The notes under the pieces: model-generated
Database searches by the model: none
The model's input: the letters and a program-made list of their open reading frames with translations, nothing else
What the model was told of the DNA's origin: nothing
In this document: positions 14,889 through 44,640 of the stretch, one piece after another
Layout of the letters: each line of letters begins with the position of its first letter
Position numbering within the stretch: the first letter of the stretch is position 1
Assembly (NCBI GenBank): GCA_019638595.1
Contig: JAHBTJ010000003.1
Span: 62,001 to 126,000 of the forward strand
Source of the DNA: Chitinophagaceae bacterium
Lineage (GTDB): Bacteria > Bacteroidota > Bacteroidia > Chitinophagales > Chitinophagaceae
Direction: 5' to 3'
DNA: 64,000 bases
Program-made: the position numbers and the translations under genes

Positions 14889-17759
14889 CTATTTTCTTCC
14901 CAATAAATATTCACTTACATCTGCCAGTTGCTGTTCTGTTACGCCTGCTACAGCCGGCTCGGGCATAAGACTGTTATCCTGTTTTTTCCGTGAGCTTATA
15001 TTATCAATAGCAATGGTATGCTTCTGTCCAGCAACATCTTTCACGGTGATCGTTTGTTTGTTTTCACTTACAATAAACCCAAAGAATGATCCGCCGTCTT
15101 TGGTGTTGATGAGCCAGGGCTCATACCCCAAAAGAATAGCTGCGCTTGGATGAATGATCGCATCCAGCAGCGCAGTTTTGTCGAATTTTTTACCAATATT
15201 ACTTAGCTCGGGTCCAATATCATTGCCATTGCCATTTATTTTATGGCAGGACGCGCAGTAGCTGGCAAAAACATTTTTACCATTCGCGGCATCTCCTTTC
15301 AGCGCCTCGATCTCGGTAATGGAATATTGCTTGCTTACACCAGGCTGCTTAAAATATTTACCTGCCTGCACTCTTACCGCGATATCGGGATTTTTAAAGA
15401 TCAGCTCTTCCATAGCAGGCACCAGCTCTTTGGGAAATTTATTTTCAGATGCCAGGCCCATTAGCAATTGCCCGCCCAGGGAATCCCTTGTCATTTGTTC
15501 TAACCTGCTCCTGCGTGCGTTTAATGCAAGATGTTCATCAAGCACGCCCAGCAGCCTGGCTTTCATATTGGCGAGCTTGCGCTCGTAGGCGGTATTGAGT
15601 TTAATGTTTTTCCAGTTCAGCAGTGAATACCAGTCGTTGCCCTGCCTGAACGATAGCCAGTAAGAAGCCTGTTCGGTTACATCCTGCAAAGCGCTCCTGT
15701 TCAGCTCTACCATGGCTTCGGCGGCTTTTTTATCCTTTATGAACGCAATAGCCGTAATAGCCGATCTTCTTTCTTTAGCAGGCAGCGATGCATCTGTTGC
15801 GCGTTGCATAAGATCATTTAACGCCGCAACGGGGTGAAGCTCCCATGCGAAATCAACCATTTTGGAATTCCATTGTAAAGGCGTTTCTCCGGCGGCTAAT
15901 ATGTTTTTTATTTCCGGGTAAATTTCTTCTTCATGTCCGGATAACGCGGCAGATACCGCATTCAGGTACCATTTGTCATCTCCGGGGTATTGTTTAACCA
16001 GTTCCAGCAATACTGGTTTGGATTGTTCATAAGGAATACCGGTCAATGCCAGGGCTACTTCCCGGCGTACATACGGGGAGGGATCGTTTTGTAACTGTAC
16101 GGCATAGGGCAATATATCGGCAACGGATACACGTAAAGCCCGCAGCGCAGTAGCTCTTATATTTTCATGCTCGTTTTTAAGAAGGGATACAACGACAGCT
16201 TTGCCCTGCTCGCCCAGTTGAGCCAGCAGCCAGATCGCCCTTGCCTGTATATAGGGGTTTTTGTCTTTCAGTAAAGCGCTTACCGCTTCTACCACCGCGT
16301 CACCCTGCTTTTTAAGCGCTTCAAAAGCAAGATACCGAACATTGATGGCGGGATTTTTCAATGCTTCTACCTGGCCGGCTGTATTACTAAGGTCAATTTT
16401 AGGCGCGGTTAGCTTTTTGTTTTTAGGAGATATCCGGTATATTCTTCCAAAGTTCAGGGTATCCTGCATCTGGTGACCGCCTACTACCGGGTCGTACCAG
16501 TCTGCTACATAAATAGCGCCATCCGTTCCTATAGTAACATCGCTCGGGCGAAACCATTTTTCTTTTAATTTGTTTGCAGCAGTATCGTTCCAAACATACA
16601 TGGCATTGTCCTGGCTGAGCGAGGTAATAAAGTTTGTTTTGTCTGCAGGTATCCAGCCCGATTTTTCTTGCCGGGAGTGATAACCGAAAATCACGTTCCT
16701 GCCGGCATCGGCGCTTAATACCATGCCAAGATATTTTTCTCCCAGCGCGCCACCTTCGTTTACAGTTATACCGGTAGGGGCACCGGCGCCGCTCCTGTCT
16801 CCCACGGGCATCACTCCGGGATCTTCCTGGTGCCAGTGTGCCGTAAAAATATCCTGGTCAGGGCGCTGATCAGCCTGCCAGGAGCGTGTGCCATCAGCGC
16901 TGAAAAACCCGGCATTCCCTCCTTCCGCGAGCCACGATACACGGCAAGCCGCCACCTCATCATCATTGTCATTCTGCCAGAAATTGCCATAAGAATCTAC
17001 TGTAAGCTCGTATGCATTGCGGAAGTTATGTCCTTTTACACCCAGGCCTGTTCCATCGGGATTTACTGTGAGCGCCAGTCCTCCCACCCAAACCTTACCA
17101 TCATCACTTTTCATATTGCCCTCATTTTGGGTATTGTATGGCGATCCTCCTTTATATATGCTGCCTGAACGCAATGTCCACCCGTTTTTGTCTGTAACAA
17201 TGTGGGGGCCTGCGTTACCGGTATTAAAATACCATTTACCATCGGGCCCGCCAATAACAGCGTGTAAAGAGTGATCATGATCCAGTCCCCCAAAACCGGT
17301 GAGGAAAATTTCTTTTTTATCCGGATGGTCATCGCCATCCTCATCGGTATATACAATAATATTGGGGGCACAGGAAACAATTACCTTATTGCCTATAACG
17401 GCAATGCCTACCGGCGCAAGCAAACTTGTATCCTGCACAAATACTTTGACAGAATCGGCAACGCCATCCTGGTCGGTATCTTCCAGTATTACGATACGGT
17501 CGCCCTTATCCCGGTGATGGAATTTTACGGGATCATTGTTGAAGTTCCTGTAGTTTACAGCTTCGGTTACCCACACTCTTCCTTTAGCGTCAATATCCAT
17601 GTTAGTGGGGTTATAAAGCATTGGCGAAGAAGCCCACAGGGTAACTTCCAGGTCATCGGGCACATAAATATCAATATCTGTTTTAGCTTTGGTAGAGGGT
17701 TGTTTGCACGAAGCGATAATAAGAATGATAGCCGATAAAATACTAAGCAACCGTGTCAT
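14889..17759 (-). CDS. PVC-type heme-binding dehydrogenase lipoprotein (beta-propeller, HEAT repeats, cytochrome c)
   Basis: A 956-residue lipoprotein (lipobox I-A-S-C). Residues about 25-430 form a glucose/sorbosone-dehydrogenase-like beta-propeller, with VTLWASSPMLYNPTNMDIDA and GRVWVTEAVNYR at the start. About 450-800 are HEAT-type helical repeats. The C-terminal 130 residues are a cytochrome c domain with CASCH (C835, C838, H839) and a GNDIGPELSNIG phrase. Family members, first noted in Planctomycetes and Verrucomicrobia, are thought to oxidise sugars or related substrates in the periplasm and pass electrons to the heme; the substrate is not established. The gene begins nine bases after a Tat-exported sugar isomerase gene and must share its transcript. 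Two relatives are at 36720 and 41290. Confidence 0.9.
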   Translation of the reverse strand: MTRLLSILSAIILIIASCKQPSTKAKTDIDIYVPDDLEVTLWASSPMLYNPTNMDIDAKGRVWVTEAVNYRNFNNDPVKFHHRDKGDRIVILEDTDQDGVADSVKVFVQDTSLLAPVGIAVIGNKVIVSCAPNIIVYTDEDGDDHPDKKEIFLTGFGGLDHDHSLHAVIGGPDGKWYFNTGNAGPHIVTDKNGWTLRSGSIYKGGSPYNTQNEGNMKSDDGKVWVGGLALTVNPDGTGLGVKGHNFRNAYELTVDSYGNFWQNDNDDEVAACRVSWLAEGGNAGFFSADGTRSWQADQRPDQDIFTAHWHQEDPGVMPVGDRSGAGAPTGITVNEGGALGEKYLGMVLSADAGRNVIFGYHSRQEKSGWIPADKTNFITSLSQDNAMYVWNDTAANKLKEKWFRPSDVTIGTDGAIYVADWYDPVVGGHQMQDTLNFGRIYRISPKNKKLTAPKIDLSNTAGQVEALKNPAINVRYLAFEALKKQGDAVVEAVSALLKDKNPYIQARAIWLLAQLGEQGKAVVVSLLKNEHENIRATALRALRVSVADILPYAVQLQNDPSPYVRREVALALTGIPYEQSKPVLLELVKQYPGDDKWYLNAVSAALSGHEEEIYPEIKNILAAGETPLQWNSKMVDFAWELHPVAALNDLMQRATDASLPAKERRSAITAIAFIKDKKAAEAMVELNRSALQDVTEQASYWLSFRQGNDWYSLLNWKNIKLNTAYERKLANMKARLLGVLDEHLALNARRSRLEQMTRDSLGGQLLMGLASENKFPKELVPAMEELIFKNPDIAVRVQAGKYFKQPGVSKQYSITEIEALKGDAANGKNVFASYCASCHKINGNGNDIGPELSNIGKKFDKTALLDAIIHPSAAILLGYEPWLINTKDGGSFFGFIVSENKQTITVKDVAGQKHTIAIDNISSRKKQDNSLMPEPAVAGVTEQQLADVSEYLLGRK

Positions 17760-34160: not shown

Positions 34161-35231
34161 ATGAAAAATTATCATCGGCGGGATTTTATTAAAACCTCTG
34201 TTACTGCCGGTATCGGGCTATCTCTTACGGGTACGGTATCTTCGTTGTTCGCAGGCAGCCTGCCTGCTGCAGGAAAACGGGTCGGCATTATCGGACTGGA
34301 TACTTCGCACAGTGTGGAATTTACAAAAGTATTGAATTCCGAAGCGGGCGCGTCCATATATAATGGTTACAGGGTAGTGGCTGCATATCCTAAAGGCAGT
34401 CCTGATATCGAATCTTCCGTAAGCCGCGTACCGGGCTATATAGAAAAAGTGCAGGGTATGGGCGTGGAAATTGTAGAAAGTATTGACGATCTGTTAAGAA
34501 AGGTGGATGTAGTATTGCTTGAAACCAACGACGGGCGCGTTCACCTGGAACAGGCGATCCCGGTGCTTAAAGCGGGAAAAACTGTTTTTATTGACAAGCC
34601 TGTTACGGCTTCGCTGGCCGATGCCATTATTGTTTTTGAGATAGCCAAACACCTGAACGTGCCTGTTTTTTCTTCTTCTTCGCTCAGGTTCATGTCTACC
34701 GCTCAGGATGTGGCAAAAGGAAAGATCGGTAAGGTGTTGGGTGCAGATACCTACACTCCCAGCGTAATAGAAAAAACACATCCCGACTTTTTCTGGTATG
34801 GAATTCACGGCGTGGAGATGTTGTATACTGTAATGGGAACGGGATGTAAAGAAGTGGTGCGCATTCATTCAGAAGGTACCGATATTGCGGTAGGGCGATG
34901 GGCTGATGGACGGATAGGTACTTTCAGGGGCACACGCACCGGTAAGCATTTGTATGGCGGAACCGCCTATGGTGAAAACGGGAATACTGTGCTGGGGCCT
35001 TTTGACGGGTATGAAGGATTACTGAAACAGATCGTACTGTTTTTTGAAACAGGTAACCCGCCGGTGCAGGCAGAAGAAACGCTGGAGCTGATAACGTTTA
35101 TGGAAGCGGCGGACGAAAGTAAAAAAAGAAAGGGCGCTCCCGTGGCATTAGAGCAGGTGCGGCAAAAAGCGCGAAAAGATGCGATGCGCCGGTTAAAAAC
35201 AATAGCGGCCGATAATGGTATCCGGATATAG
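34161..35231 (+). CDS. Tat-exported Gfo/Idh/MocA oxidoreductase, variant nucleotide loop
   Basis: A 356-residue protein with a Tat-like signal (MKNYHRRDFIKTSVTAG). The Rossmann start is VGIIGLDTSHS, not the usual GxGxxG; the next motifs are LETNDGRVHLEQA and VFIDKPVTA, with DKP replacing the common EKP. The C-terminal alpha/beta dimerisation domain follows. This subgroup is seen in Bacteroidota and Planctomycetes beside sugar-oxidation genes. Export means the cofactor must be bound before Tat transport. First gene of a five-gene operon. Confidence 0.85.
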   Translation: MKNYHRRDFIKTSVTAGIGLSLTGTVSSLFAGSLPAAGKRVGIIGLDTSHSVEFTKVLNSEAGASIYNGYRVVAAYPKGSPDIESSVSRVPGYIEKVQGMGVEIVESIDDLLRKVDVVLLETNDGRVHLEQAIPVLKAGKTVFIDKPVTASLADAIIVFEIAKHLNVPVFSSSSLRFMSTAQDVAKGKIGKVLGADTYTPSVIEKTHPDFFWYGIHGVEMLYTVMGTGCKEVVRIHSEGTDIAVGRWADGRIGTFRGTRTGKHLYGGTAYGENGNTVLGPFDGYEGLLKQIVLFFETGNPPVQAEETLELITFMEAADESKKRKGAPVALEQVRQKARKDAMRRLKTIAADNGIRI

Positions 35232-35254
35232 TACACAAATATTAAACTCATGGT

Positions 35255-36598
35255 ATGAAAAATTCCAGAAGAAGATTTATAAAAAGATCTGTTGCTGCTT
35301 CCGCCGCTGTTAGCTTTGGTGCTGTGCTGCCGGGCTTCAGCGCTAAAAGTTATGCGAATATTATGGGAGCGAATGATCGTATTAAAGTAGGCGTAATGGG
35401 GGTGAACGCCCGGGGACTGGCACTGGCTCAAAATTTCGCGTATCAGAAAAATTGTGAAGTCATTTATATATCCGATGTAGACAGCCGCGCGATGGACAAA
35501 TGCGTGGATGCGGTAAAAAAAATACAGGATAGCGCACCCTCCGGAGTAGCCGATTTCAGGAAAGTCCTGGAAGACAAAGCGCTTGACGCGATGATCATTG
35601 CAACGCCGGATCACTGGCACGCCCCCGCAGCTATCCTTTCGTGCAAGGCAGGTAAGCATGTGTATGTGGAAAAGCCCTGCTCTCACAATCCGCACGAGGG
35701 CGAATTATTAGTAGCCGCCGCCAGGAAATATAACCGCAAGGTTCAGATGGGCTCGCAACGCCGGTCGTGGCCTAATATCATTACGGCCATACAGGAGTTA
35801 AAAGAGGGAGTGATAGGGCGCGCGTATTATGGCAAGGGCTGGTATGCCAATAACCGTCCATCCATCGGCAATGGAAAAAAAGCGGAAGTGCCCTCGTGGC
35901 TCAACTATGATCTCTGGCAGGGGCCCGCGCCCAGGGAAGCTTTCCGCGATAATATGCTTCATTATAACTGGCATTGGTTCTGGAACTGGGGTACCGGTGA
36001 AGGAGGAAACAACGGAACGCATACGGTAGATATGCTGCGCTGGGGTATGGGAGTGGAATATCCCATCAGCGTAAACTCTTCGGGTGGGCGTTACCGGTAT
36101 ACCGACGATTGGGAAACGCCCGATACCCAGGTGGTAACCTGGAACTTTTCGAATAACAGCATGATGGAGTGGGAGGGAAGAAGCTGTAATAACCGGAATA
36201 TTGAAGAGGAAGCTGTTGGCGTGGTATTTTACGGGGAAAAAGGATCGCTGGTGATCGGCGCCGGGAATACGTATAAGATATATGATCTGCAGAATAAATT
36301 AATAAAAGACGTAAAAGACACGGTTTCGGTAGACGCACGGAATACGGTAGATCCATCAAAAAATCTCGATGCCCTGCATATTCAGAATTTTTTTGATGGT
36401 ATCCGTAAAGGAGCTTCATTGAATGCCGATATAGAAATTGGCCATACAAGTACTTTGCTGACCCACCTGGGCAATATTGCGCTTCGCACGGCAAGCGTCT
36501 TGAAAATTGATGAAAGTAATGGAAGGATCATAGGCAATAAAGAAGCAAGCGCTTTTTGGAAGAGAAAATACGCCCCGGGCTGGGAGCCGGCGTTGTAG
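35255..36598 (+). CDS. Tat-exported Gfo/Idh/MocA oxidoreductase
   Basis: A 447-residue protein with a Tat signal SRRRFIKRSVAASAAVS. Nucleotide-binding loop GVMGVNARG at about residues 47-55, then VYVEKPCSHNP with the catalytic lysine K140. Later phrases HWHWFWNWGTGEGGNNGTHTVDMLRWG and the C-terminal FFDGIRKG are typical of the periplasmic glycoside or polyol dehydrogenase group in Bacteroidota. NAD(P) is presumably bound tightly. It is 23 bases after the first Gfo/Idh gene; the two may work on the same substrate or its product. Confidence 0.9.
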   Translation: MKNSRRRFIKRSVAASAAVSFGAVLPGFSAKSYANIMGANDRIKVGVMGVNARGLALAQNFAYQKNCEVIYISDVDSRAMDKCVDAVKKIQDSAPSGVADFRKVLEDKALDAMIIATPDHWHAPAAILSCKAGKHVYVEKPCSHNPHEGELLVAAARKYNRKVQMGSQRRSWPNIITAIQELKEGVIGRAYYGKGWYANNRPSIGNGKKAEVPSWLNYDLWQGPAPREAFRDNMLHYNWHWFWNWGTGEGGNNGTHTVDMLRWGMGVEYPISVNSSGGRYRYTDDWETPDTQVVTWNFSNNSMMEWEGRSCNNRNIEEEAVGVVFYGEKGSLVIGAGNTYKIYDLQNKLIKDVKDTVSVDARNTVDPSKNLDALHIQNFFDGIRKGASLNADIEIGHTSTLLTHLGNIALRTASVLKIDESNGRIIGNKEASAFWKRKYAPGWEPAL

Positions 36599-36719
36599 CA
36601 TCGTCCAGGTTGATACAGCGCGAAAATTTGAAATGCCGTATCAACCGGGTACAATTTTAGGTAGATTTGATGCCGTAAGATTATTATTAGATCTGTTCAT
36701 TTGTTTATAAGTATATAGC

Positions 36720-38852
36720 ATGATGCGAACAACCAGATACAGTCATTGCATTGTTTTGTTTTTATTGCTTTGCTCCTGTTCTGAAAAACGTTACCGGGAT
36801 GCCCTCTCGCCGGAGGAATCCATGAAAACATTTCAACTGGCGGAAGGGTTCAGTATTGAACCATTTGTTACCGAGCCCCTGGTTAAAACGCCTGTAAGTA
36901 TGCTGTTTGACGAGCAGGGCGATGTGTATGTGGTGGAAATGGAAGATTATCCTTACAATGCAGAGCCCGGGCAGGGAAAGGGGGTGATCCGGGCCCTGTT
37001 TGATATGGACGGCGATGGCAGGATAGATAGTTCGGTTGTTTTTGCCGACCGGTTGCCGAGCGCTACCAGCATGCTGCCGTGGAAAGGCGGTCTTATTGTA
37101 GCTGCCGCCCCGGATATTCTTTATTTGAAAGACACTTCGGGCGATTATCGCGCCGATATAAAAGAAGTACTGTTTACAGGCTTTTTTGCCAGCAATTCCG
37201 AAGCGCAGATCACCAGCCTTACGTTTGGGGTGGACAACTGGATTTATGCCAATAACAACGGGCAACATGGTGAAGTAAGCTTTTTGAAGAAACCCGGCGA
37301 CCCGCCGTTGAATATGAGCGGGAGTGATTTTCGTTTCCGGCTGGATCGCGGCCAGTTTGAAAAGGAATCCGGCTCCGGGCAGTTCGGGCTGGCCATGGAC
37401 GATTGGGGAAACCGGTTTTATACACAAAATACCTTGCATATCCAGCAGTCGCCTGTTCCGTGGAGATACCTGCACCGGCACGATTTTCTTCCTTCCGGGT
37501 CTACGGGCGTAAATATTTCCGACCACGATCTGCTGATGTTCCAAAAAACACCTGCGCCCTATTGGCGCGCGGAACGCAGCGCGCAACGGCAAAAAGCTTT
37601 TGATGAGGCAAAGCTGGATCGTAAAGAATATGCCGACGGGCATTTTACCGGTGCTTCCGGTGGTACTTTTTATGGTGGCGACGCATTTCCCCCGGAGTAT
37701 TATGGATCGGTGTTTACGGGTGATGTAGCCGGGAACCTGGTTCACAGGGATGTTATTGCTCCGCGTACGGATGATCTGCCTTTCGTTGCAAAACGCGGAA
37801 CCGGCGGGGAGAGCCGGGAATTTCTTGCTTCAACAGATCCGTGGTTCCGGCCGGTTAATTTTTATTCGGCGCCCGATGGAAACTTATATATAGTGGATAT
37901 GTATCGCCAGCATATTGAAACGCCTGTTTCCATTCCCGAAGAATTAAAGAAGGACATGGATTTTTCAAACGGTGATCAGATGGGCAGAATATACAGGGTA
38001 GCGTCCGCCGGGAAGAAAGTAAATACGGCTAAACCCGGTCTTAGAAATAAAACATCAGCCGCGCTTGTAGAGGTTTTATCTCAACCCAATCAATGGTGGC
38101 GATTACAGGCCCAGCGTTTATTGATAGAACGGCACGATAGTACGGTAATACCATTGCTGAAAACGTTGTTCAATACGCACCAGGATGCCCGCATACGGTT
38201 ACACGCGCTGTATACGCTGGAAGGATTGGATGCGCTGGATTTTATGGTTGTAGGGCAGGCATTGAAAGATACAGAGCCGGGCGTGCGCAAACATGCGATG
38301 ATGCTGGCTGAAAAGTATCCTCAAAGCATCGGGCAGTTGCTGCAAATGGTGAACGACCCGTCTGTACAGGTAGCGTTACAGGCAACGCTGAGCCTTGGTG
38401 AGTTTTCTTCGCCACAGGTCATGGGAGCTTTCGCCGATGTAATACAGCAACGGGGCAACAACCCATGGTTTCAAAAAGCAGTGTTAAGCTCTCATGCAGG
38501 CTCTTCACCCGCGCTGCTGAAAATACTGATAGATAAAAACATTTTCTCAGGGTCCGCGGAGGAATCCAGGCTTTCTTTTGTAAAAGATATGTGCTACGTA
38601 ATAGCCGCGCGTGGAAAAAAGGATGAAGTACAGGAGGCGCTTGAATGGCTGGCTCACCATGCATCAAAAGTGGGGAGTGCATACAGGTTGGCAGGATTGG
38701 AAGGGCTGGCAGATGGGCTTAAGCAAAGTAAGAGTAAGGAAAAAAATGATCCCGGTTTTATCAAAAAGCTAAAAGACTACCGTGAAAGCGCACCCGAAGA
38801 TGTGAAAACGGCTTTGCAAAAGATAAGTGCCGCGGCAGGCGATACGCTATAG
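36720..38852 (+). CDS. PVC-type dehydrogenase lipoprotein without a cytochrome domain
   Basis: A 710-residue lipoprotein (lipobox L-C-S-C). Residues about 30-440 are the beta-propeller of the PVC-type family: FQLAEGFSIEPFVTEPLV, ALFDMDGDGRIDSSVVF, STDPWFRPVNFYSAPDGN, and LYIVDMYRQHIETP. About 450-690 are HEAT-like repeats. Unlike the relatives at 14889 and 41290, no CxxCH motif exists anywhere, so the heme domain is missing, not degraded by a frameshift. The next gene, 15 bases on, encodes a HiPIP iron-sulfur protein. I infer that this protein supplies the electron-acceptor function in place of the cytochrome. Confidence 0.87.
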   Translation: MMRTTRYSHCIVLFLLLCSCSEKRYRDALSPEESMKTFQLAEGFSIEPFVTEPLVKTPVSMLFDEQGDVYVVEMEDYPYNAEPGQGKGVIRALFDMDGDGRIDSSVVFADRLPSATSMLPWKGGLIVAAAPDILYLKDTSGDYRADIKEVLFTGFFASNSEAQITSLTFGVDNWIYANNNGQHGEVSFLKKPGDPPLNMSGSDFRFRLDRGQFEKESGSGQFGLAMDDWGNRFYTQNTLHIQQSPVPWRYLHRHDFLPSGSTGVNISDHDLLMFQKTPAPYWRAERSAQRQKAFDEAKLDRKEYADGHFTGASGGTFYGGDAFPPEYYGSVFTGDVAGNLVHRDVIAPRTDDLPFVAKRGTGGESREFLASTDPWFRPVNFYSAPDGNLYIVDMYRQHIETPVSIPEELKKDMDFSNGDQMGRIYRVASAGKKVNTAKPGLRNKTSAALVEVLSQPNQWWRLQAQRLLIERHDSTVIPLLKTLFNTHQDARIRLHALYTLEGLDALDFMVVGQALKDTEPGVRKHAMMLAEKYPQSIGQLLQMVNDPSVQVALQATLSLGEFSSPQVMGAFADVIQQRGNNPWFQKAVLSSHAGSSPALLKILIDKNIFSGSAEESRLSFVKDMCYVIAARGKKDEVQEALEWLAHHASKVGSAYRLAGLEGLADGLKQSKSKEKNDPGFIKKLKDYRESAPEDVKTALQKISAAAGDTL

Positions 38853-38867
38853 CAATGTTTATATAAA

Positions 38868-39257
38868 ATGATCATAAGTATGGAATGGCAAGGATCAAGG
38901 CGGCTTTTTTTGAAGCGGGGCATTGTGTTTGGATTAACGTTTGCCGGAGTGGGCGCTTTAATACAAGGTTGCGGACAGTCGCCTGCGGGGGGCGATGCAC
39001 AAAAGGAAAACAAAGCTGCTTCCGCCGCCGATCCATGCAGCGATTATACCGGGCTTACGGAAGATGATATAAAGGCGAGACAGCATCTTGGGTATGTGGA
39101 GGTTTCCCCGGTTAGCGACAGGCAATGCAGCAACTGTAATTTATGGCTTCCGCCGCCAGCCGGCAACCCCTGTGGCAAATGCCAGTTGTTCAAAGGACCT
39201 GTAGAGCCGGGTGGTCATTGTACCTACTGGGCTCCGCTGGCGCAACAGGCCGGTTGA
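38868..39257 (+). CDS. High-potential iron-sulfur protein (HiPIP)
   Basis: A 129-residue exported iron-sulfur protein. A Tat-type signal (SRRLFLKRG) is followed by a possible lipobox near C35. The cubane ligands are C87, C90, C105 and C118, spaced as in HiPIPs (C-x2-C, then about 15 and 13 residues), within RQCSNCNLW, CGKCQLF and HCTYWAP. Two more cysteines (C57, C102) are present. HiPIPs carry electrons in the periplasm of phototrophs and some respiring bacteria; they are not common in Bacteroidota. Start could also be ATG 38880. The gene sits directly after the heme-less dehydrogenase. Confidence 0.9.
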   Translation: MIISMEWQGSRRLFLKRGIVFGLTFAGVGALIQGCGQSPAGGDAQKENKAASAADPCSDYTGLTEDDIKARQHLGYVEVSPVSDRQCSNCNLWLPPPAGNPCGKCQLFKGPVEPGGHCTYWAPLAQQAG

Positions 39258-39290
39258 TATTTATTCGTTTTCAACTTAATTTAATACTGG

Positions 39291-40667
39291 ATGTACACCA
39301 GGAAACAAAATTCATATTCGGCTGCACTAAATCTGTTGTGGCTGATACTGATCTTAGGCAACGTTGCTCCATTATATGCGCAGCCTGTAAAAATAGGCGT
39401 GTTTAATGTGGATGTTACGCCTCCTGTAGGAACACCGGTGGCGTATGCCGTTGCCCGGTCTGTAATGGATCCGCTCAGCGCAAGAGGCGTTGTAATACTT
39501 TCGAATGAAAAGCCGGTGGTTTTGTGTGCCGTGGATTGGATAGGGATTGCCAATGAAGGGTTGGAGATATGGCAAAAGCAACTGGCAAAAGCCGCTAACA
39601 CAACAACCGACCGGGTGTCGGTACACGCGCTCCACCAGCACGATGGGGTACACTGCGATTTTACGATGGCAAGGATCATGAGTGAATATGGTATAGCTGA
39701 TCCTCCTTTTGATACGCTCTTCCAGCTTGCTGCCATTCAGCGGGTAGCCGATGCTGTTAGTATGGCTGTCGCCGCGGCGGAGCCTGTTACGCATGTGGGT
39801 TTTGGAGAAGCCAAAGTGGAAAAAGTAGCCTCGAACCGGAGGATACAGGGAGAGGATGGCAAAGTAAAAATTATCCGGTGGAGCAGAACAACGGATCCGG
39901 AAGCCATTGCGGCGCCCGAAGGATTGATAGACCCATGGTTGAAATGTGTAAGCTTCTGGAACCGGGAAAAGCCCGTGGCGGTTATGACCTACTATGCTAC
40001 CCATCCTCAAAGCTATTATGGCAAAGGCGATGTAACCTGCGAGTTTGTTGGCATTGCACGCAACGACCGGGAATCGAAGACACAGGTGCCGCATATACAT
40101 TTTAACGGCGCCGGTGGCGATGTAACAGCGGGGAAATACAATGATGGTTCGGAAGCGATGCGCCCGGTGCTTGCCGTCCGGATGGAGCAGGCAATGGCAG
40201 AGGCATGGCGGCAAACACAAAAAACCGCGCTTGCTGAAAAAGATATTTCCTGGAAAAATATGGAGGTGCGGCTCCCGTTAGGAAAAAATATTGTGGAGCA
40301 GCAGCTCCGGGATACCCTGGCCAGTAAAACGGCTTCGCGCCCGGACCTGTTAGCCGCTTCAGAAAAGCTGGCCTGGTACCAGCGCTCTGTTGCAGGTCAA
40401 AAGGTAAATATTTCCTCCCTGCGGCTGGGAAAAGTGTGGCTGCTGAATTTGCCGGGAGAACTGTTTGTGGATTACCAGTTGACCGCGCAGAAAATGCGTA
40501 AGAACGATCATGTTTGTACGGCGGCATACGAAGAATACGGGCCAGGATATATCGGAACAAAAGAATCCTACTCCCAGGGCGGATACGAAACAAGCGGCAT
40601 TGTTTCCGGCGTTGACCCGGGTGTGGAAAAGCTGATAAAAAAGGCAATGAAGAAAGTATTGAAATGA
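39291..40667 (+). CDS. Secreted neutral/alkaline ceramidase-like protein
   Basis: A 458-residue exported protein (signal ending LYAQP). It has the N-terminal catalytic domain of neutral ceramidases (GVFNVDVTPPVGTP, VHALHQHDGVHCD with H115 and H117, MTYYATHPQ with H238), but not the C-terminal Ig-like domain. The nucleophile motif is GGDVTAGKYN: Thr279 stands where ceramidases have Ser in GDVSPN. The zinc ligands look intact. Short proteins of this kind occur beside sugar-oxidation genes in Bacteroidota and Planctomycetes and are unlikely to cut ceramide. Last gene of the Gfo/Idh-HiPIP operon, 33 bases after HiPIP. Confidence 0.82.
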   Translation: MYTRKQNSYSAALNLLWLILILGNVAPLYAQPVKIGVFNVDVTPPVGTPVAYAVARSVMDPLSARGVVILSNEKPVVLCAVDWIGIANEGLEIWQKQLAKAANTTTDRVSVHALHQHDGVHCDFTMARIMSEYGIADPPFDTLFQLAAIQRVADAVSMAVAAAEPVTHVGFGEAKVEKVASNRRIQGEDGKVKIIRWSRTTDPEAIAAPEGLIDPWLKCVSFWNREKPVAVMTYYATHPQSYYGKGDVTCEFVGIARNDRESKTQVPHIHFNGAGGDVTAGKYNDGSEAMRPVLAVRMEQAMAEAWRQTQKTALAEKDISWKNMEVRLPLGKNIVEQQLRDTLASKTASRPDLLAASEKLAWYQRSVAGQKVNISSLRLGKVWLLNLPGELFVDYQLTAQKMRKNDHVCTAAYEEYGPGYIGTKESYSQGGYETSGIVSGVDPGVEKLIKKAMKKVLK

Positions 40668-41289: not shown

Positions 41290-44200
41290 TTAATTTTGCA
41301 CAGTAAGCAGGTAAGCCATTAAAGCGTTATAATCTTCCTGCGACAAAATAGTACCGAACTGGTCGGGCATCAAAGTATATTTCGATGCTTTGCGTTCTGC
41401 CACATCGCTTTTAGCTACAGAAAATTCTTTGCCGGAGGCGTCTGCATAAATAGTGGCAGCTCCTTCCTCGCGCCTGAAGAGCCCTGTCATTACCTTGCCG
41501 TCTTTTAATTTAATGGTATAGCTGCGGAACGACTCGGAAATATTCCGGTTGGGATCCAGTATCTTTTCCGATAATGACTGTACGCCCCATTTACCTACGC
41601 TGTTTAATTGAGGTCCGATCATGCCACCCCCATCATCGCCAATACTATGACAAGGGGAGCAGTTGCGGGTAAATACCGAACGCCCTTCGGATGGCGAAGG
41701 AGCAGGCTTGGCTGCATGAAAAGCGGATACTCTTTCGTTGATCAGCGCCTGCCTTTCCTTGCTAACATCTTCAAGGTTGGCGGTCAGCGCCTTCAATACT
41801 GCCTGTTGTTTGGGTGAAATATTCAATGTAAGCCGTTCTTCCACTTTAGGTTGTATCAGCACCCTCGCAAACATTTCCCCTTTTTTTACCTTGTCAAATA
41901 TAATGTCTTTGCCCGCGCTGGTGCTGGCCAAAGCGATCGCTATGGTTTGCTGTAAGTCGGGTTCCGCATTTTTAATGCCGGCAAGTATCTTGGTAGTGGT
42001 TCCGCCGGGGAATTCTCCCAATGCCGAAACAATATCCCTCTTAAAATCGCCTGTTGCTTTTGGATCCAGTAACAGCTCCCCCGCAAGGGCCGCGTTCTTA
42101 TTCATATCCAGCTTCAGCAATGTTCTCAGCGCTGTTGTCCTTACATCGCGCCCGTTGGCGGTATCTCTTGCAATGTCCAGTATTTTTGGGGCAACAGAAG
42201 CTACTTTATACCTGCCTGCTATATCCATCGCGAACTTTTGTTTGTCAATGTTTTTTTGATCACCTTCAATTTTGCTACCCTTATTAGCATCTATTACATC
42301 CATCGCCAGCTTTTTGCCCCAATCCTGGAACTGAGGTGTTTCTTTTCCTCCTCTCCTCACAATACCGTCCTGTATACTTTTAAAAATAGTATAGTCGAGA
42401 TCCGCATCTTTGCTGCCTTTTTCCATCCCGGTTGTAATTACCCCGCTCAACTGCGCATCCGGAATGAACCGGGCAATGTGCATAAATACTTTGGGAAACT
42501 CTTCTTTTGAAACATCATTCGTTTTGAGATAATTGTACAGGAAAGTTGCCGACGCCGGCGTTTGAACGCCCACTAATACCGTAGCCAGTACGGCGGCATC
42601 TTCATTCTTCCATTGTTTACCCGCGATTTCATTCATTAAAAATTCATGGCGCAGCATATTACGCAGGGTCAAACGGATGGTATAGATCATATGGGTATCA
42701 AAATCCTCTACTTGTTTCCTGAATGCGATCAGCTTATTCACCGCGTTGGAGTTTACATACCTGCCCATCAGCTCTACAGCGGCTCTTCTTACATGCACGT
42801 CTTTATCGTTGAGCGCTGCCGCAGCGAGGGCGTACACCGCATCAGAAGTATCCTTTTGCTCACTCAGCACACGCATGGTATGCAGGCGTATTACAGGATC
42901 TGCGTGAGTAGCCGAAGCTTTTATAATATCATCCGTAAGTGCATTCAGGCGATGCAGCACCCATAAGCTATGAATATATTCGCGGGAGCCGGCGTCTTTT
43001 TTCAGCAATACCGCTTTAGCAGGTTCCGCAGCGGCATTCCCGATCCTGTTCACCAGTTGGTTGGCTGCTTCCATCCGTATTTTAATGTTATCGGCGTTCA
43101 ATGCAGCAACCAGCTCCTGCACGGCAGCCGCGCTCAGGTCCTGCTTTTTGTTTGATTGGCCTTTATATGTAATACGCCAAATCCTGCCGCTTACCCTGTC
43201 GCGTTTGGGATGATCTAACGGTACTTCGTAGTGCCCGATAATGCTGTTATAAAAATCGGCAATATAAATAGCCCCGTCGGGTCCCAGCTTCACATCCACC
43301 GGTCTGAACCAGGGATCTTCGCTCAGCACAAAATCCGCTTCCCTTTTTCCTACAGGCGTAGAACCCTTAAAGGAAAAAGAGTTCCTGTATACTCTCGAGG
43401 CAACCACATCGCCGATGAATAAATTTTTCTGGTAGGCTTCCGGGTATTTAACATCCGCGTAATAGGCAAGTCCTGCCAGGGCGGTCGCTTCATTTTCAAA
43501 AGGTTTCATGTCCGGCGCAAACCCCATGCCTTCTTCCTTACCCCACTGTGAATAGTCGCCACCTTTTATTAACTGGTACAGGGGAGAGGTATGGCAGTCT
43601 GTAGAATACAGGTACCCCATCTCGTCGAACGCCAGCCCAAACGGGTTGATTCGTCCGGCGGTATGATGCTCGATGCGGCTGCCGTCTTCCCTGAAGCGGA
43701 TCGTGTTCCCGGAGATCAGGTGAATACTGTCTCCGTCCGCTCCCGCAATATTCGAACGGTTGGTAAAACCATGACAACCGTAGATCCACCCGTCATATCC
43801 ATCCGTAAAGTTATTTACCATGCCGTGCGTATCCTTGTATTCAAAAGGGCCATACAGCCGTTGCTGGCTTTCGGGCGTACCATCGCCATCGGCATCGGTA
43901 AAGTGCATTACATTGGGAATGGAAAAGGCAACAGCGCCGTCTTTTACAGGTAAGATGCCGATCGGGATATTTAAAGTATCGTCGAAGTGTATAAACTTAT
44001 CAGCCTTGCCATCGCCATCGGTATCTTCCAGTATGCTTAACCGGTCTTTACCCTTTCCGGGAGAAGCGGCAAAAGGATATTCAAAAGATTGAGTGACCCA
44101 TATACGCCCTTTCGCGTCAAAAGCAATATTGATGGGTTTGCCGATATCCGGTTCGGAAGCGTACAATTCTATCTCAAATCCTTCCGGCAGCTTAAACCCT

Positions 44201-44373
44201 TTCCGCTCCTCTTCGGGCGTGCGCGCTGAAGTGGAGCGAATATGCTCGTTGAACTTAGCGCCGCTGTATAAAGTATCTGATTGATTGTTCGCGTTTTCTT
44301 TTTCGCTGTTATTACAAGCTGTATGCAGCAACAGGCATGTTATGGCTGCTGCGATTATTCTTTTCATATTCAT
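41290..44373 (-). CDS. PVC-type heme-binding dehydrogenase lipoprotein (beta-propeller, HEAT repeats, cytochrome c)
   Basis: A 1,027-residue lipoprotein (lipobox H-T-A-C). The beta-propeller starts with LPEGFEIELYASEPDIGKP and GRIWVTQSFEYP; LSEDPWFRPVDVKLGPDGAI marks its end at about residue 370. HEAT repeats fill about 400-830. The cytochrome c domain has CSPCHSIGDDGGGMIGPQL with C905, C908 and H909, and ends in SQEDYNALMAYL. ATG 44373 is chosen over TTG 44400. It is preceded, 267 bases away, by a GH78 gene on the same strand, which suggests the released sugar could be its substrate. Confidence 0.92.
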   Translation of the reverse strand: MNMKRIIAAAITCLLLHTACNNSEKENANNQSDTLYSGAKFNEHIRSTSARTPEEERKGFKLPEGFEIELYASEPDIGKPINIAFDAKGRIWVTQSFEYPFAASPGKGKDRLSILEDTDGDGKADKFIHFDDTLNIPIGILPVKDGAVAFSIPNVMHFTDADGDGTPESQQRLYGPFEYKDTHGMVNNFTDGYDGWIYGCHGFTNRSNIAGADGDSIHLISGNTIRFREDGSRIEHHTAGRINPFGLAFDEMGYLYSTDCHTSPLYQLIKGGDYSQWGKEEGMGFAPDMKPFENEATALAGLAYYADVKYPEAYQKNLFIGDVVASRVYRNSFSFKGSTPVGKREADFVLSEDPWFRPVDVKLGPDGAIYIADFYNSIIGHYEVPLDHPKRDRVSGRIWRITYKGQSNKKQDLSAAAVQELVAALNADNIKIRMEAANQLVNRIGNAAAEPAKAVLLKKDAGSREYIHSLWVLHRLNALTDDIIKASATHADPVIRLHTMRVLSEQKDTSDAVYALAAAALNDKDVHVRRAAVELMGRYVNSNAVNKLIAFRKQVEDFDTHMIYTIRLTLRNMLRHEFLMNEIAGKQWKNEDAAVLATVLVGVQTPASATFLYNYLKTNDVSKEEFPKVFMHIARFIPDAQLSGVITTGMEKGSKDADLDYTIFKSIQDGIVRRGGKETPQFQDWGKKLAMDVIDANKGSKIEGDQKNIDKQKFAMDIAGRYKVASVAPKILDIARDTANGRDVRTTALRTLLKLDMNKNAALAGELLLDPKATGDFKRDIVSALGEFPGGTTTKILAGIKNAEPDLQQTIAIALASTSAGKDIIFDKVKKGEMFARVLIQPKVEERLTLNISPKQQAVLKALTANLEDVSKERQALINERVSAFHAAKPAPSPSEGRSVFTRNCSPCHSIGDDGGGMIGPQLNSVGKWGVQSLSEKILDPNRNISESFRSYTIKLKDGKVMTGLFRREEGAATIYADASGKEFSVAKSDVAERKASKYTLMPDQFGTILSQEDYNALMAYLLTVQN

Positions 44374-44640
44374 GGTAGATAAAATCCCTGCTTTTAGCAA
44401 TCATTAGTGAATAAGCGCTGAATTTAAATGAAAAAAAGTAAGGACAAAATAATTGCAGGCCCAATCCATAAAAAAAGTAAAACAATAAACGGTCAGCCAG
44501 GCTTGCTTTTTACGGTTTTAATGGATCCCGACGGCTGAATGCTGCTATTGGCGCTGCTTTCAGGGCGATGGTACACTTTTACCGGTTGTTAACAAAACCA
44601 ATAGCAAACCAGTACACTACGGGATGGTTTATGGCAGACT

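Follow-up and report, generated by a model that had tools for sequence, protein, structure and literature searches.

A heme-less DUF7133 propeller protein and its neighbouring HiPIP as a possible split oxidation module in Chitinophagaceae

A heme-less propeller protein encoded next to a HiPIP

The window analysed here is a stretch of 64,000 nt from a Chitinophagaceae bacterium (assembly GCA_019638595.1, contig JAHBTJ010000003.1, positions 62,001 to 126,000 of the forward strand). Between positions 34161 and 40667 it carries two genes for Gfo/Idh/MocA oxidoreductases (GfoA, GfoB), a gene for a heme-less PVC-type beta-propeller protein, a gene for a high-potential iron-sulfur protein (HiPIP), and a gene for a ceramidase-like hydrolase. 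All five open reading frames lie on the plus strand with intergenic gaps of 23, 121, 15, and 33 bases, in agreement with a preliminary description of the locus. We consider it probable, at roughly 70%, that a HiPIP acting in trans has replaced the cytochrome as electron acceptor of the heme-less DUF7133 oxidoreductase.

The heme-less PVC-type protein (36720..38852, plus strand; 710 aa) has a signal peptide with a lipobox-like Cys, followed by a DUF7133 beta-propeller (approximately residues 39–430) and a HEAT solenoid (approximately residues 440–705). Searches against Pfam and NCBIfam matched DUF7133 (E 5.5e-113), TIGR02604 (244.5 bits vs a cut-off of 122.2), and HEAT repeats; in the same scans and in a motif search, neither CxxCH nor a cytochrome or cupredoxin domain was found, which confirms the earlier assignment as a PVC-type beta-propeller/HEAT protein without CxxCH. 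The NCBI model name “PVC-type heme-binding CxxCH protein” is nonetheless applied over cut-off to this heme-less protein, because TIGR02604 spans the N-terminal propeller only. For the heme-less clade described below, that name is wrong. The PVC-type relatives at 14889 and 41290 do bear cytochrome c domains, as had been noted. The second of them (41290..44400, minus strand) matches TIGR02604 and TIGR02603 above cut-off and has its CxxCH at residue 914; convergent with the operon and standing outside the pair, it serves as a contrast within the window.

The HiPIP gene (38868..39257, plus strand) encodes a protein with a twin-arginine translocation (Tat) signal, a lipobox-like Cys35, and the cluster cysteines C87, C90, C105, and C118. 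Its PF01355 match is narrowly above the gathering score (23.2 vs 22.0 bits), and the best solved relative is a HiPIP, PDB 3h31 (E 1.8e-19), which we take to be the protein of Rhodothermus marinus. An alignment of 14 HiPIPs shows all four cluster cysteines to be invariant; the Tat Arg-Arg (residues 11–12) and Cys35 do not vary in it either, and the pattern CxxC-x(n)-C-x(n)-C is present in all 29 PVC-linked HiPIPs considered below. As Cys35 immediately follows the hydrophobic stretch of the Tat signal, the protein is probably an exported, lipid-anchored lipoprotein, with the lipobox judged by eye; the HiPIP of locus L222 has no Cys within its first 50 residues. This HiPIP gene is the only one in the window's genome (7.06 Mb, 52 contigs).

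Linkage, phylogeny, and changing neighbourhoods

Searching 294 genomes of the window's family, we obtained 46 places with similarity to the window's PVC protein at E≤1e-80. They split into 20 with 526–1638 bits and 26 with at most 405 bits. A contig end truncates one of the higher-scoring 20; among the remaining 19, 18 lie no more than 2.2 kb from a HiPIP. A second family, which includes genome G389, yielded 43 PVC genes in 200 genomes, 40 of which have a HiPIP on the same strand within 1 kb; the PVC gene occurs in 41 of these genomes, the HiPIP in 41, and both in 39. Pooled over both families, a HiPIP lies near 58 of the 62 heme-less genes found by PVC search (one further gene is cut off). 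Copy counts are lower bounds, with the best three (window's family) or five (second family) candidates per genome scored. The HiPIP and PVC scans of the second family were run at the same settings and are taken to cover the same 200 genomes; adjacency was derived there from table coordinates, and nine places were read, including a PVC gene in two frames (L219). Another set of 20 loci was a hand choice among the matches listed in a separate search rather than a random draw; four cytochrome-sized places of the 46 (G870:C6, G842:C81:16218, G887:C433, and G881) were left unfetched, and L120 and L121 are truncated where their contigs end.

None of the 48 cytochrome-bearing DUF7133 proteins in our tree has a HiPIP of its own. 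The stretches fetched for 45 of them contain no HiPIP, although some are short; the remaining three (14889 and 41290 of the window, and L111) have a heme-less/HiPIP pair 2 to 21 kb away. The comparison proposed in the preliminary description, namely whether HiPIP genes neighbour heme-less PVC-type genes more than heme-bearing ones, thus comes out at 58/62 vs 0/48, and the lack of conserved linkage named there as a refutation was not observed. In a mixed set of loci found from either the PVC or the HiPIP side, 29 of 30 uncut heme-less genes are HiPIP-linked; as it shares members with the second family (G389; L220 and L221 are the same loci as L016 and L011), this set was not added to the 62. 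The two genes are within 64 bases of each other in 23 of the 29 pairs and on the same strand in 28. No fused PVC-HiPIP protein was detected among the loci read, and the long HiPIP frames of L066, L074, and L078 gave no match to the PVC profile.

The association also appears when counted from the HiPIP. Within the window's family, 8 of 147 genomes contain HiPIP genes, at nine places, and a scan of GTDB contigs added eight loci in Larkinella, Dyadobacter, Runella, and Flavilitoribacter; in all 17 a heme-less PVC gene is adjacent or one gene's length away. Earlier, HiPIPs had been described as rare in Bacteroidota, which holds only in part: the share of genomes is 8/147 in the window's family and 41/200 in the second family (E<1e-20). 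Across the phylum, 43 of 395 genomes were HiPIP-positive at E≤1e-3. At E<1e-20 there were 37 HiPIP places, four of them with a PVC partner: the window, G302, G389, and G311, the last from outside the window's class. Within this class, nearly every HiPIP found adjoins a heme-less DUF7133 gene; outside it, 33 of 34 strong HiPIPs are without a PVC partner, several of the stretches being short on one side. These 33 solo HiPIPs and 3h31 form a branch separate from the PVC-linked HiPIPs, and even the most frequent Pfam family is found in at most five of the 108 solo-HiPIP neighbours scanned (126 listed). Two solo HiPIP genes without DUF7133 neighbours (L075, L081) occur in one genome, G371, which is likewise outside the class. 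The profile searches scored the best up to 11 or 22 candidates per genome, and weak matches (E 6.9e-8 to 1e-3; G284, G286, G301, G361, G369, G463, G510, G986, G1112, and the second match of G464) were excluded.

A quick tree built from 92 DUF7133 domains places the HiPIP-linked proteins in a single clade (SH-aLRT 100) amid cytochrome-bearing groups; copper domains appear elsewhere, C-terminal at two places and N-terminal at a third. The tree is unrooted and gave long-branch warnings; matched spans below 330 residues and identical domains were left out. Its simplest reading would be one heme loss accompanied by one HiPIP gain, a direction which we infer, as the tree is unrooted. The distances among the 29 HiPIPs correlate with those among their 29 PVC partners (r=0.75; none of 5000 permutations as high), a correlation to which shared species history contributes.

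The preliminary description had treated all five genes as one oxidation operon. Among the 29 pair loci (the window included, relatives counted at ≥40% identity), the PVC-HiPIP pair is conserved, whereas relatives of GfoA, GfoB, and the ceramidase-like hydrolase occur at only five, four, and five loci, respectively. The unit that is conserved is thus smaller than first described and consists of the pair. A scan of 75 of 90 listed same-strand neighbours (23 loci) and the three further window genes showed changing sets of ceramidase-like, amidohydrolase, Gfo/Idh, alpha/beta-hydrolase, aminotransferase, and sulfatase genes. That the pair is kept while its surroundings change speaks for a function of the pair itself.

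Within the window, GfoA (34161..35231, plus strand; 356 aa) is a Tat-signal Gfo/Idh/MocA oxidoreductase (PF01408, E 2.1e-11), and its relatives, at 58–71% identity, lie in similar operons of Runella, G389, G870, and others. GfoB (35255..36598, plus strand; 447 aa), also with a Tat signal, matches PF01408, PF19051, PF02894, and PF22725. Against the NCBIfam model of the BT_2158 glycoside 3-dehydrogenase it reaches 143.7 bits, far below the cut-off of 750; judged by this score, GfoB is related to the BT_2158-type Gfo/Idh enzymes of the periplasmic 3-keto-glycoside pathway but is not a member. Its nearest solved relatives, 8tdf/8tdh, are annotated “dehydrogenase”. The Pfam scan found no 3-keto-disaccharide hydrolase (PF06439) among the five genes; a PF06439 gene adjoins L113, a PVC copy without a linked HiPIP. 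The hydrolase (39291..40667, plus strand; 458 aa) resembles the N-terminal part of neutral/alkaline ceramidases. The likeness noted earlier holds, yet its PF04734 (Ceramidase_alk) score of 21.3 is under the cut-off of 32.1 and does not make it a family member. Relatives with 45–62% identity adjoin some other PVC-HiPIP pairs, and in G870 (L118), of the same genus as the window, PVC, HiPIP, ceramidase-like, GfoB, and GfoA genes share one stretch.

Runella-type operons have the order GfoA, accessory genes, PVC, HiPIP, GfoB, NagP-like transporter, NagA, and NagB-like protein. NagA scores over its cut-off (277.7 vs 225.65 bits), whereas the NagP-like (378.8 vs 625) and NagB-like (127.6 vs 236.9) proteins remain under theirs. 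The presence of Nag genes beside the pair points to an amino-sugar substrate in operons of this type. The window's version has GfoA and GfoB and no Nag genes among its five genes. As most other pairs are without Gfo, ceramidase-like, and Nag genes, the substrate probably differs between loci.

Electron exits, proposed route, and alternatives

The window's genome encodes 22 large TIGR02604-type proteins, 19 above the cut-off and three below. Eighteen have CxxCH, three a plastocyanin/azurin-type copper domain, and one is the heme-less HiPIP-linked protein. Four more distant matches are outside this count: three have a copper domain, and a 448-aa protein has no carrier domain. In three DUF7133 proteins (L172:4734-7631, L176:5019-8513, and L178:5485-8799), a cupredoxin-type domain replaces CxxCH, N-terminally in one and C-terminally in two. 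By Pfam it is clear in L178, weak in L172 (E 0.006), and without a match in L176, where the assignment is by eye from a His, Cys, His, Met pattern; the cupredoxin profile was seeded from L176 and L178 themselves. The three more distant proteins with a copper domain are GSDH/DUF7133-like propellers (L187:6910-8967, L188:6513-8597, and L189:4981-7050), in which a plastocyanin/azurin-type domain is C-terminal. Additional domains are ThuA in L176 and GDSL in L178. A ThuA-DUF7133-cupredoxin gene at L191:5070-8652 is in two overlapping frames, probably through a frameshift, and L190, which has a CxxCH-encoding gene after it, is possibly a gene that was interrupted or split.

The preliminary description had regarded a separate cytochrome gene always adjacent elsewhere as evidence against its inference. 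Such a neighbour is not the rule; we found a single case, in another phylum, on a plasmid of Ketogulonicigenium vulgare (L223, NZ_CP103998.1:127325-134223), where a DUF7133 “dehydrogenase” of 770 aa without CxxCH has a gene for a 137-aa c-type cytochrome 24 bases upstream. With fused heme, fused copper, a separate cytochrome, or a separate HiPIP as its electron carrier, the propeller is most readily understood as a single kind of redox enzyme in which the way out for electrons can be exchanged.

The 710-aa protein would then be a periplasmic, membrane-anchored DUF7133 oxidoreductase, with a sugar-dehydrogenase-type propeller on a HEAT solenoid. Its ancestor probably had a C-terminal cytochrome c, a domain presumably lost in the heme-less clade, and the role of one-electron acceptor would have passed to the separate, adjacently encoded HiPIP. 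Electrons may run from a substrate in the propeller pocket via a propeller cofactor to the [4Fe-4S] cluster of the lipid-anchored HiPIP and on to a heme-copper oxidase; four COX1 genes are present in the window's genome. The best structural matches of the predicted fold are the pyrroloquinoline quinone (PQQ) sugar dehydrogenases 3a9g, 7cdy, and 2g8s and the AA12 enzyme 6i1q. Foldseek alone put a luciferin-regenerating enzyme on top and 3a9g sixth, with many alpha solenoids among its matches. Polar residues are invariant across all 29 aligned HiPIP-linked PVC proteins, and the window's protein has an Arg-rich insertion (W282, R283, R286, R290). The original inference that the HiPIP takes electrons from the heme-less dehydrogenase is supported by the missing heme motif, the single clade, the near-obligate linkage, the correlated divergence, and the different carrier domains of sister clades; direct electron transfer and catalysis themselves are what we infer.

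Several observations weigh against this proposal. The heme-less proteins are one clade and their genomes are related, so that the counts are not independent events. The fold is common to non-dehydrogenases such as hedgehog-interacting protein (HHIP; 3 of the first 13 rows) and DFPase. A catalytic His and an Arg-Asn motif are characteristic of soluble glucose dehydrogenase; in the heme-less clade the His is replaced by SEAQIT and Arg-Asn by GQF, an alignment-dependent outcome from a comparison via a single GSDH relative, and the Arg-Asn motif is likewise not kept in the sister cytochrome clade. Neither pqqC nor pqqE was found over cut-off in the organism, although the pqqC control was silent everywhere, too. 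PQQ can also be taken up by cells. Because the catalytic residues are not kept and pqqC and pqqE do not reach their cut-offs, it is doubtful from the sequence that the heme-less protein is a PQQ enzyme. Computed charges gave no clear pattern of complementarity (HiPIP core mean +0.6, PVC mean −13).

Exceptions to the linkage count on the same side. Four of the 62 heme-less genes have no nearby HiPIP: L113 (G910) and L218 (G1031), which are second copies in genomes with another, linked copy, and those of G1039 and G1069, which keep the order GfoA, PVC, GfoB with no HiPIP between PVC and GfoB. Neither G1039 nor G1069 was among the HiPIP-positive genomes of the second-family scan; in G1039 an amidohydrolase gene accompanies GfoA. 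Conversely, G1066 keeps GfoA-HiPIP-GfoB with the PVC gene gone, and in G1073 the PVC gene is absent and an internal stop interrupts the HiPIP. The bond between the two genes is thus strong but not absolute. Loci L214, L215, L216, and L217 hold such operon variants, with HiPIP missing, PVC missing, or an internal stop in the HiPIP, and may be useful as natural experiments. Two DUF7133 proteins of Dyadobacter of about 900 aa (L193:7694-10396, L194:7866-10565) have no CxxCH, copper domain, or nearby HiPIP; together with the 448-aa GSDH-like protein, they indicate that the absence of a carrier need not mean a HiPIP. Both Dyadobacter genes directly follow a cytochrome-bearing paralogue.

Gfo/Idh sugar oxidoreductases with bound NAD need re-oxidation, and the HiPIP could serve the Tat-exported Gfo/Idh enzymes by re-oxidising tightly bound NADH, with the PVC protein as a mere neighbour. 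Both the window and the Runella-type operons have Gfo genes flanking the HiPIP or the pair, and the arrangement in G1066, without PVC, keeps this explanation alive. We regard it as unlikely: 24 of the 29 loci have no GfoA/GfoB relative at 40% identity and 19 lack a full-length one on the fetched stretch, while the pair is kept, and G1039 and G1069 retain both Gfo genes without a HiPIP. As a general rule, a Gfo/Idh partnership was rejected on account of this scarcity. It is also rather improbable that the clade's PVC protein is a non-enzymatic binding or scaffold protein, comparable to HHIP, with the HiPIP hitch-hiking as a general respiratory carrier. The lost GSDH-type residues and the HHIP fold matches would suit such a role, as would the reported reduction of R. 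marinus HiPIP by alternative complex III (PMC5928083, PMC8552683). This reading is opposed by the nearly exclusive linkage seen in both families, the correlated divergence, the branch apart from solo HiPIPs, and the invariant polar residues; in addition, each of the genome's 21 other large TIGR02604-type proteins has a carrier motif or domain. An ordinary respiratory carrier present by chance was rejected on the grounds that solo HiPIPs are on another branch and share no neighbour family. Plain operon inheritance, finally, would mean that the pair became fixed once by chance and persists because both proteins work in one catabolic programme; they would not touch, and the PVC protein would pass its electrons to a carrier encoded elsewhere. 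The single clade and the apparent ability of G1039 and G1069 to manage without a HiPIP fit this scenario, yet the neighbourhood turns over while the pair stays, mostly at very short spacing, and we consider it very improbable.

A bolder version of the split-carrier proposal is less likely than not. DUF7133 might be a plug-in oxidation platform coupled to cytochrome c, blue copper, or a lipid-anchored HiPIP in trans, with the HiPIP clade possessing a rebuilt, non-PQQ active site and with the Arg-rich insertion serving to dock or feed the HiPIP. The HiPIP might then serve just one periplasmic dehydrogenase in catabolism, whose substrates in Runella-type operons are probably amino-sugar compounds. 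According to PMC5928083 and PMC10715153, known HiPIP roles are those of carriers in photosynthesis, iron oxidation, and respiration. Judged by titles and the openings of abstracts, we found no paper tying a HiPIP to DUF7133/TIGR02604 and none on a HiPIP with such a restricted role. If true, the restriction of a HiPIP to one catabolic enzyme would add a new function to those described for these proteins. A large and almost unstudied family, with over twenty copies in the window's genome, thereby gains a model that can be put to the test, in which electrons leave a sugar-dehydrogenase-like propeller through an exit that is exchangeable. As enzyme and carrier are separate proteins in the heme-less clade, this clade lends itself to bench work, and transfer would be directly measurable on the HiPIP.

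Comparison with known systems

Among the nearest known systems are the PVC-type heme-binding CxxCH proteins (TIGR02604 plus TIGR02603; DUF7133), which share the propeller and HEAT repeats, occur in the same genome, and form sister clades. They carry a C-terminal cytochrome, whereas the window's protein is without one and its likely carrier is the separate HiPIP. For a cytochrome-bearing family member from Verrucomicrobia, lactose hydrolysis was reported in PMC5342196, the only paper found that names any of the four families. PQQ-dependent sugar dehydrogenases of the GSDH family resemble the heme-less protein in propeller fold, with a weak sequence link, and differ from it in their catalytic His and Arg-Asn.

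On the carrier side, 3h31 has the same four cysteines and is the closest HiPIP with a structure, and many solo HiPIPs of the phylum likewise have a Tat signal and, by eye, a lipobox-like Cys. What distinguishes 3h31 and the solo HiPIPs from the PVC-linked ones is their separate branch and the lack of a DUF7133 neighbour or any other widely shared neighbour. The copper-domain DUF7133/GSDH-type proteins (L172, L176, L178, L187–L189) parallel the window's pair in having a one-electron carrier domain and no CxxCH, but their copper carrier is fused in cis, while the HiPIP would act in trans. A heme-less propeller with an adjacent carrier gene is also encoded in the alphaproteobacterium K. vulgare; there, the carrier is a cytochrome c encoded upstream, in contrast to the HiPIP of the pair described here.

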